Source of the DNA: Microcaldota archaeon
Lineage (GTDB): Archaea; Micrarchaeota; Micrarchaeia; Micrarchaeales; Micrarchaeaceae
NCBI GenBank assembly: GCA_028866905.1
Contig: JAGWHI010000004.1
Coordinates: forward strand, 1 to 64,000
Length of the DNA: 64,000 nt
Direction: 5' to 3'
This document shows, one piece after another, positions 33,453 to 46,703 of this stretch (position 1 is the stretch's first letter; the number at the start of each line of letters is the position of its first letter). A model generated the notes under the pieces. The model did no database searches and was not told where the DNA came from. It was given only the letters and a program-made list of their open reading frames with translations. The translations under genes were made by a program, and so were the position numbers.

Positions 33453-33540
33453 GGGCCCGTAGCTCAGCTTGGATAGAGCGACAGCCTTCTAAATCCATGA
33501 GGAAAGCTGAAGGTCGCGGGTTCAAATCCCGCCGGGCCCG
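33453..33540 (+). tRNA. tRNA-Arg (UCU) with a 13-base intron
   Basis: The acceptor is GGGCCCG/CGGGCCC with discriminator G. The D arm is GCTCAGCTTGGATAGAGC, the anticodon TCT lies at 33488-33490, and the T arm is GCGGGTTCAAATCCCGC. The anticodon 5' strand (CAGC) can pair with GCTG at 33506-33509 only if about 13 bases are removed at the canonical 37/38 position. The mature tRNA would be 75 bases. It begins on the base after the tatD stop, so 5' processing must release it from an mRNA. Confidence 0.9.
33492..33504 (+). other. tRNA-Arg intron (13 bases)
   Basis: AATCCATGAGGAA interrupts the anticodon loop one base 3' of the UCU anticodon, the usual archaeal intron site. The ends are ambiguous by a base or two because of flanking A residues. 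Excision would need the splicing endonuclease, whose gene is not in this window. Confidence 0.7.
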
Positions 33541-45166: not shown

Positions 45167-45508
45167 TTACTTCTTCTCCGCCGGGGGGTTTAGCGATATT
45201 ACGTACTTCGATATGATTTTGGCGGCATAGGCGAGCACCTTCTTGATGTTGGCCTCGGTGTTCGTGCCTGTGCATATCATCTTGCCGTTCTTGAATAGTA
45301 TGAGCACGGCCTTGGGCTCCGCAACCTTGAAAATCGCCCCGGGAAACTGCTCTGGCTCGTAGTCCACTGCCTTGACGTCCTTAGAAAGGGCGTAGAGGTC
45401 TATGACAGCGTGAAGGTCGGCGCTGACCACGACATTCTGCACCTTTATCTGCGGAGACTTTATGTCGCCGGACTGGCTGGCTCCAGACTCTGGCTTCTTC
45501 TTTGCCGT
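45167..45508 (-). CDS. Single-repeat TBP-like protein (C-terminal TBP half only)
   Basis: Archaeal TATA-binding protein is two tandem ~90-residue repeats; this gene encodes one. PQIKVQNVVVSADL, YEPEQFPGAIFKVAEPKAVL and LFKNGKMICTGTNTEANIKK match the second TBP repeat, including the two phenylalanines (QFPG and LFKNGK) that intercalate at the DNA kink. The track-supported GTG (45442) would delete the first strand. Upstream in frame are a Lys/Ser-rich linker and no ATG, GTG or TTG; an ACG at 45508 (reading AKKKPESG next) has GGTG five bases upstream and is taken as the start. TATA DNA binding as a homodimer or with a partner half is inference. Confidence 0.75.
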   Translation of the reverse strand, partial: TAKKKPESGASQSGDIKSPQIKVQNVVVSADLHAVIDLYALSKDVKAVDYEPEQFPGAIFKVAEPKAVLILFKNGKMICTGTNTEANIKKVLAYAAKIISKYVISLNPPAEKK

Positions 45509-45518
45509 AGGAACACCC

Positions 45519-45533
45519 GTATATATTTAAAGG
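45519..45533 (-). promoter_or_regulatory. TATA box of the TBP-like gene
   Basis: CCTTTAAATATATAC on the minus strand, upstream of the TBP-like gene and back to back with the element for the divergent reductase gene. The single-repeat TBP may therefore be expressed from a strong TATA promoter of its own. Confidence 0.6.
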
Positions 45534-45538
45534 GAAAG

Positions 45539-45550
45539 GTTTAAATACTG
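45539..45550 (+). promoter_or_regulatory. TATA box of the geranylgeranyl-reductase-like gene
   Basis: GTTTAAATACTG is centred near 45543, predicting a transcript start near 45570, about 12 bases before the proposed ATC start at 45582. Confidence 0.6.
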
Positions 45551-45581
45551 TTTAAGGATCCTGTCTAGTTTTGGTGGTACC

Positions 45582-46703
45582 ATCGGCTCGACGGTAAGCG
45601 TTGTAGGCGCGGGCGTAATCGGCCTGGTGCTCGCGAAGGAGCTCGCGCAGAACGGCATAGACGTCACTGTATACGACTCCAAGAGGAGCGTGGCGGAGGG
45701 CTCGGCAAAGGCGTCGGGCATACTGTCGAGGAAGGGGCTGGAGAGCATAGGCGTAGACTTCAGGCCCTCGGTGGTCAACACGCTCGACGGCGCCGTGATG
45801 TACGCCAGGAACGTCAGCATGAGGGTGAAGGCGAAATCGCTGATGGCTTACGTTGTCGACAGGGGGAAGTATGCGGAGCTGTGCGCGAAGGAGGCGAGGG
45901 AGGCCGGTGCCAGGATCGTCCTTGGGCGCAGGTTTGACAGGGAGGGCATAGTCGGATTGAGGGACGAGTCGAAGGTAATCGTGGGTGCGGACGGCGCGGT
46001 ATCGAATGTGGCGAGCGCGTTCGGCTTCCCGAAGATCGACGAATTCGTGCTTACGTACAAAGCGGAGTACAGGGGGGCAAGGATACCGGACAGCCACATG
46101 GTGGGGCTCTTCTTCAGCGGCGACATAGCCAAGAGGTTCTTCGGATGGAGCGTACCCTATTCGGACGACGTGATAGAGGTGGGTGTGGGCACCAGCACTA
46201 AAGGCAACAGGAACAGCATGCAAGCCTTCAGGAACCTGCTAAAGCACTGGGCGATAGCCGAGCAGCTCGACGGCGCCAGGAACATTGCGGGCAACGCGAG
46301 CATCATACCCCTTTCGATGAGGAAGAAAACAGTCAAAGGGAACGTGTTGCTTGTTGGGGATGCGGCTGGCCAGGTGAAGGCCACTACCGGCGGTGGGATA
46401 GTGTTCGGATCAGCATGCGCAAAGGTAGCTGCCAAGATGATTTCGGATAGCGTGGAGCGCAGGCTCGCTTTGTCCAGGTACGAGAGGGCATGGAGGAAAA
46501 GGTACGGCACCGACCTGTACATGCACAGGTTCGTACACGCGGCGTACTCGGGCCTTGACGCGCGGGGGCTTGACCGGCTGTTCAGGCTCTCCAGGCTTTT
46601 CGGCGCTGAAAGATTCCTCAGCGAGTACGGAGACATGGACAGGCCGAGCCTGGTGCTGAAGAGGTTCTTCCTGCGCGGCCTGTTCGGCAGGTCGTACGAC
46701 TAA
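45582..46703 (+). CDS. Geranylgeranyl-reductase-family flavoprotein
   Basis: 373 residues from the proposed start. The FAD dinucleotide motif is VSVVGAGVIGLVLAKELAQN at the N-terminus, and the second family signature is NVLLVGDAAGQVKATTGGGI. In archaea these enzymes saturate the isoprenoid chains of membrane lipids (digeranylgeranylglycerophospholipid reductase). The frame needs residues before GTG 45627 to complete GxGxxG, yet upstream there is no ATG, GTG or TTG; an ATC at 45582 has GGTG five bases upstream and the transcript starts near 45570. CTG 45561 is a less likely alternative. Confidence 0.85.
   Translation: MGSTVSVVGAGVIGLVLAKELAQNGIDVTVYDSKRSVAEGSAKASGILSRKGLESIGVDFRPSVVNTLDGAVMYARNVSMRVKAKSLMAYVVDRGKYAELCAKEAREAGARIVLGRRFDREGIVGLRDESKVIVGADGAVSNVASAFGFPKIDEFVLTYKAEYRGARIPDSHMVGLFFSGDIAKRFFGWSVPYSDDVIEVGVGTSTKGNRNSMQAFRNLLKHWAIAEQLDGARNIAGNASIIPLSMRKKTVKGNVLLVGDAAGQVKATTGGGIVFGSACAKVAAKMISDSVERRLALSRYERAWRKRYGTDLYMHRFVHAAYSGLDARGLDRLFRLSRLFGAERFLSEYGDMDRPSLVLKRFFLRGLFGRSYD

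Follow-up and report, generated by a model that had tools for sequence, protein, structure and literature searches.

A single-repeat TATA-binding protein gene in Micrarchaeota and its probable place in a dimeric TBP

In a stretch of 64,000 nucleotides (nt) from a Microcaldota archaeon (assembly GCA_028866905.1, contig JAGWHI010000004.1, positions 1-64,000; hereafter the window), we analyzed tbp-B, a gene encoding a TATA-binding protein (TBP) that consists of a single repeat. Archaea and eukaryotes alike use TBP, which is described as a fusion of two lobes that meet around a pseudo-dyad. The genome of the window, 885 kb in size and 90% complete, contains exactly two TBP repeats, each in a single-repeat gene: tbp-B (hereafter B) and a second gene, A, on another contig (C6:34398-34643). 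It is likely that tbp-B encodes a functional single-repeat TBP subunit and that this subunit takes part in a dimeric TBP. That Micrarchaeota with single-repeat genes use a dimeric TBP in general appears highly probable, while A-B as the main species in the family of the window is a reading that we favor slightly. In the following, f1 denotes this family, f2 its sister family and f3-f27 the other Micrarchaeota families.

One TBP repeat per gene

The tbp-B frame is open throughout (45508-45167, minus strand), with no internal stops. Its product matched PF00352 once, over the whole 85-position model (85.3 bits against a cut-off of 22.9); no second TBP repeat was detected by this search in the 113 residues, and no domain other than the TBP repeat was found. 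The two tandem repeats of a canonical TBP are absent from tbp-B, which also stays below the cut-offs of the full-length NCBIfam TBP models (86.2 bits versus 181). AlphaFold2, supplied with 32 aligned sequences, predicted a core with a local confidence score (pLDDT) above 90 and a disordered N-terminal tail. When this model was compared with PDB entries by Foldseek, the 44 best matches were all TBPs, mostly at 0.8-1.5 Å over about 80 aligned columns, which correspond to one half of the 180-residue TBP. The one-repeat TBP of about 113 residues, which an earlier note on this DNA had proposed, is borne out by these results. The Lys/Ser-rich stretch, taken in that note for a linker replacing the first repeat, turned out to be the disordered N-terminal tail of about 20 residues. 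A match to the second half of TBP only, also claimed there, did not hold, as the protein scored about equally against a profile of canonical N lobes (88.4 bits) and one of canonical C lobes (84.8 bits), each made from 11 lobes. Most of the full-length NCBIfam models aligned the protein to their C half, and type B repeats are among the most C-like Micrarchaeota repeats, closer to the canonical C lobe than A. A TBP-domain protein of the RNase HIII N-domain type was rejected, with no enzyme domain attached and the best RNase HIII fold match at an expectation (E) value of 0.15.

Alignment with canonical lobes revealed that the DNA-face Asn/Val and both intercalating Phe positions are kept. The DNA-face Asn and both Phe positions are common to A and B, and the YEPEQFPG stirrup is present in both. 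The two proteins differ in six columns. In one of these, two residues ahead of the second Phe, Leu is replaced by Ile; we take this position to contact DNA in known TBPs. B begins with P-x-I-x-I-Q-N, as C lobes typically do, and A frequently shows the E-N seen in N lobes. The genome encodes one ordinary transcription factor B (TFB) with two cyclin repeats, as do nearly all f1 genomes, and based on the stirrup and this gene, TFB binding is predicted. For four f2 genomes (G037, G044, G049 and G055), TFIIB-domain matches exceeded the usual two, suggesting extra TFB or TFB-like genes.

The whole-genome search, at the completeness given above, recovered neither a two-repeat TBP nor an orphan canonical half, leaving A and B as the sole TBPs; a regulatory half-TBP beside a full TBP gene, one of the options in the earlier note, does not fit this genome. 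Ratios of nonsynonymous to synonymous substitution rates (dN/dS) between orthologous genes were about 0.01-0.12 for B, in the pairs printed, and about 0.01-0.21 for A. These values indicate strong purifying selection on both genes, on B at least as strong as on A.

To describe the distribution, 60 relatives and 276 genomes across the phylum were surveyed, largely metagenome-assembled genomes (MAGs); the related loci came from a public genome collection, in MAGs labelled mostly Candidatus Micrarchaeota. The f1 genomes encode two single-repeat genes, located at separate loci in the genomes fetched. Of 32 f1 genomes with a completeness of 90% or more, exactly two matches were found in 28, three in two others, and a single match and no match in one genome each; for f2, 11 of the 19 genomes at this completeness have exactly one match and eight have two. 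In f1, B is retained nearly throughout (some 27 genera), and it is missing from many f2 genomes. In the genomes read, families f14-f16 and f18-f27 have single repeats, mostly one per genome, and families f3-f13 have tandem two-repeat TBPs. Exactly one single-repeat TBP was found in many genomes, at least 90% complete, of f2 and about a dozen other families. The single-repeat architecture thus recurs in related genomes, and since single-contig genomes are among them, the pattern is not a binning artefact.

A few loci differ from this general picture. Locus L003 (contig G009:C43 of 8.4 kb) carries a gene for a canonical two-repeat TBP, and the Micrarchaeota MAG to which it belongs also has both single-repeat genes; this contig is perhaps contaminating, possibly from another archaeon. 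Two f15 genomes (L207-L210; G147 and G151) have two or three near-identical single-repeat TBP genes each, with a distance of 1.3 kb between two of those in G151, which points to recent duplications. At a contig end in f2 (L020, G059), an A-type repeat follows the same-frame end of another repeat, with 93 of 93 nt identical, representing either a very recent in-frame TBP fusion or a contig-end artefact. Two IMG/VR contigs of 84 and 150 kb (L234 and L235) matched the TBP query. Virus-borne relatives were considered and rejected, as L234, the one viral contig read, encodes a canonical two-repeat TBP.

A proposed saddle of two chains

Since each chain has the elements of a complete lobe, a pair of chains could build the canonical saddle. 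We propose that the saddle would be a dimer of two one-lobe subunits, joined at the place where the canonical lobes meet, with each subunit supplying two DNA-kinking phenylalanines and a TFB-contacting stirrup. Where a genome has exactly one single-repeat TBP gene, only a homodimer could build the saddle; a homodimer would thus be the form used by most other single-repeat Micrarchaeota, which have one gene. The homodimeric TBP suggested in the earlier note is therefore required in those relatives and not in the genome of the window. In f1, A and B go back to an ancient duplication, and the working TBP would most likely be an A-B heterodimer, since B is almost always kept and has C-lobe-like features. 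Such a heterodimer would restore the lobe-to-lobe asymmetry of canonical TBP, and some A-A may form too.

One ordinary TFB would bind one end of the saddle and provide direction through the B recognition element (BRE). According to a review, archaeal transcription direction rests on TFB-BRE contacts (PMC7289017). As TFB is asymmetric and single, and direction comes from TFB-BRE, directed initiation would be possible even with a symmetric TBP. Upstream of the tRNA genes of one one-repeat genome, AT content is 74% at -36 to -24 versus 46% at -60 to -40, a peak consistent with TATA boxes at the usual place. Palindromic TATA-like hexamers at the same tRNA promoters were not above chance (0.12 versus 0.125 expected). 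The gene, its fold, the copy numbers, the lack of a two-repeat TBP, selection, the TFB gene and the phylogeny are results of the analysis; dimerisation, A-B pairing, TATA binding and polarity from TFB are what we infer.

Start codon and neighborhood of tbp-B

The features of the locus are collected in Table 1. The first conventional start of tbp-B is a GTG at 45442, right at the border of the folded domain, and for this reason an ordinary gene caller would shorten the gene. Within f1, an ACG is found 3-5 nt after a Shine-Dalgarno (SD)-like motif, mostly GGTG, in 22 of 31 B genes; L039, L043, L050, L058, L062, L077, L079, L080 and L089 are among the loci with this start. In seven f1 B loci, the stretch from the upstream stop to the domain lacks ATG, GTG and TTG, and in four an in-frame stop immediately precedes the ACG. 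A-type genes have an ATG, GTG or TTG upstream of the domain. No enrichment of ACG after SD-like motifs was observed in 228 other open frames of the family, and ACG as a general start codon of the family was rejected on this basis. The conserved ACG may be a weak start that limits B, perhaps to set the A:B ratio. The position of the TATA-like AGTATTTAAACC would fit a transcription start site just upstream of the SD-like motif.

Table 1. Coordinates of tbp-B and adjacent features in the window
Feature	Position	Strand	Basis or remark
tbp-B, single-repeat TBP gene	45167..45508	-	113 codons plus TAA stop at 45167-45169
TBP repeat and C-terminal tail of tbp-B	45170..45453	-	PF00352 match at 45203-45451
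ACG at the start position of tbp-B	45506..45508	-	Conserved in relatives
SD-like GGGTG, 5 nt before the ACG	45514..45518	-	Sequence; motif and spacing alike in relatives
TATA-like AGTATTTAAACC, putative tbp-B promoter	45537..45549	-	Sequence
Geranylgeranyl reductase family gene, divergent from tbp-B	45531..46703	+	Open frame

The divergent reductase gene (TIGR02032 match at 45627-46703, plus strand, E value 3e-41) is a conserved neighbor in f1, with the divergent arrangement at nearly all B loci of the family. None of the codons ATG, GTG and TTG occurs in its frame before the Rossmann motif (SVVGAGVIG), so the reductase may also start at a non-standard codon; locus L082 is similar. Elsewhere in the window (33453-33540, plus strand), a tRNA-like gene received an unassigned four-base anticodon call (acag) and is possibly an unusual or intron-bearing tRNA.

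Origin of the forms and alternative explanations

Maximum-likelihood repeat trees were built from single repeats and from the N and C lobes of tandem and canonical TBPs (89 columns, with many forks lacking resolution); the canonical sequences came from the PDB, from plasmids of haloarchaea, from one viral contig and from an odd contig in the MAG of a relative. All Micrarchaeota repeats fell on one side of a branch with a support of 99/100, and the tandem lobes of the phylum clustered with its single repeats and apart from the canonical N and C lobes. Joining Micrarchaeota N lobes with canonical N lobes was rejected (p 0.0035), as was C with C (p 0.0054). Lobe-lobe identity is 53-80%, mostly 60-80%, in tandem Micrarchaeota TBPs and 42-57% in canonical TBPs. 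The B clade (support 100/99) has members from both f1 and f2, which places the A/B duplication before the split of these families. Judged by these trees, A and B are paralogues, and their divergence took place within Micrarchaeota.

In a tree of RpoB' sequences from 30 genomes, for which Pyrococcus and Sulfolobus sequences from PDB alignments served as outgroup, the single-repeat families f23-f27 form the deepest branch, with single-repeat f20 and f21 at the base of the rest; the tandem families are nested, and three state changes suffice with a single-repeat root. Placing all tandem genomes in one group was not rejected (p 0.29), and one group of all single-repeat genomes gave p 0.07. For one f6 genome (L368, G131), RpoB' appeared as two overlapping matches in separate frames, due to a frameshift, a split gene or a sequence error. 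A single repeat is the likelier ancestral state within Micrarchaeota, and as the single form is basal on this tree, tandem forms were probably re-made in the phylum by re-fusion, one to three times, with gene conversion as the alternative. The preservation of an ancestral form, raised in the earlier note, is thus supported within Micrarchaeota only. A bolder scenario, in which the Micrarchaeota single-repeat TBP would descend directly from a primordial one-lobe homodimeric TBP that pre-dated the canonical duplication, with the tandem forms as independent repeats of that duplication and A-B as an independent route to an asymmetric saddle, seems to us improbable; our genome search covered the Micrarchaeota phylum.

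Other explanations start from a two-lobe TBP. If the ancestor of Micrarchaeota had a tandem TBP whose lobes were homogenised by gene conversion, single forms would have arisen later by loss of one lobe, perhaps repeatedly. Conversion between lobes does happen, since runs of 42-47 nt are identical between the lobes of several tandem TBPs, with synonymous divergence (dS) down to 0.28, and it stays a rival for this reason; against it stand the basal single repeat on the RpoB' tree and the separation of the tandem lobes from canonical N and C lobes, although both would still be compatible with early conversion, and on balance we consider this history rather doubtful. Far less credible is the cutting of a canonical gene into A as the old N lobe and B as the old C lobe. 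The C-lobe-type start of B and the frequent N-lobe-type E-N of A would suit such a fission, but A and B fall among the single and tandem repeats of the Micrarchaeota clade, both canonical groupings failed and relatives with one gene exist; we rejected fission on the strength of the repeat trees. Thus, from the split TBP of the earlier note, the second half-TBP gene on another contig was recovered, and the descent from old N and C lobes was not. We hardly give any credence to a decaying duplicate or an assembly error, which the earlier note had named as possible refutations and for which our analysis produced no supporting point: dozens of genomes, single-contig ones included, have this architecture, the B frame is without stops and its dN/dS is low.

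The explanation that comes closest to our own concerns the role of B. A could be the general TBP, acting as a homodimer, and B a specialised alternative, either as B-B or as A-B at some promoters only, in likeness to the multiple TBPs of haloarchaea at half size. Several observations weigh in this direction and against A-B as the main species. The many f2 genomes with A and without B indicate that A needs no B there, A-type repeats are nearer than B to the one-gene forms of other families, and the ACG start suggests a low or regulated output, hinting that B is scarcer than A and suiting a minor partner equally well. In addition, the profile test assigned none of the Micrarchaeota repeats clearly to the N or the C type. 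A specialised B is less easily reconciled with its near-universal retention and strong selection in f1, and we regard it as a possibility of some weight, though short of probable.

Compared with known systems, each single-repeat protein resembles one lobe of canonical archaeal TBP (PDB 1MP9, 2Z8U, 1PCZ and 1D3U) in fold, DNA-face residues, both Phe and stirrup; canonical TBP works with TFB, the gene of which is also present here. Canonical TBP is one chain of about 180 residues with two tandem lobes, in contrast to one lobe per chain and two genes in the genome of the window. Haloarchaea also encode several TBP genes per genome, e.g., on plasmids in Halobacterium, but those fetched and read are two-repeat proteins. 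In the poxvirus TBP/TFIIB-like system, promoters are likewise recognised by a heterodimer, VITF-3 (PMC12917281), which is a TBP/TFIIB-like pair forming a ring, whereas both partners proposed here are TBP lobes. TBP is considered to consist of two lobes produced by duplication and fusion (PMC7221094), and the N and C lobes of 34 species form two clean clades, from which one duplication was inferred (PMC4910066); Micrarchaeota lobes do not follow these clades. The pre-duplication lobe of these studies is a single lobe, as here, proposed only as an ancestor (PMC7221094, PMC4910066). TBP is listed, in the one passage naming it, among the factors conserved in most DPANN genomes (PMC8407392). In a literature search of partial coverage, by which priority is not established, no report was found on single-repeat or homodimeric TBP, or on TBP in Micrarchaeota or DPANN.

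To our knowledge, a one-lobe TBP dimer has so far existed only as a hypothetical ancestor. With a one-gene single form, a two-gene pair and tandem forms in one phylum, Micrarchaeota would present likely evolutionary steps of TBP in living lineages, and these steps become open to biochemical testing. How direction is set with a truly symmetric TBP would test the view that TFB and BRE give polarity. What has long been pictured as an ancestral state of the transcription machinery may thereby become directly testable in an ultra-small archaeon.
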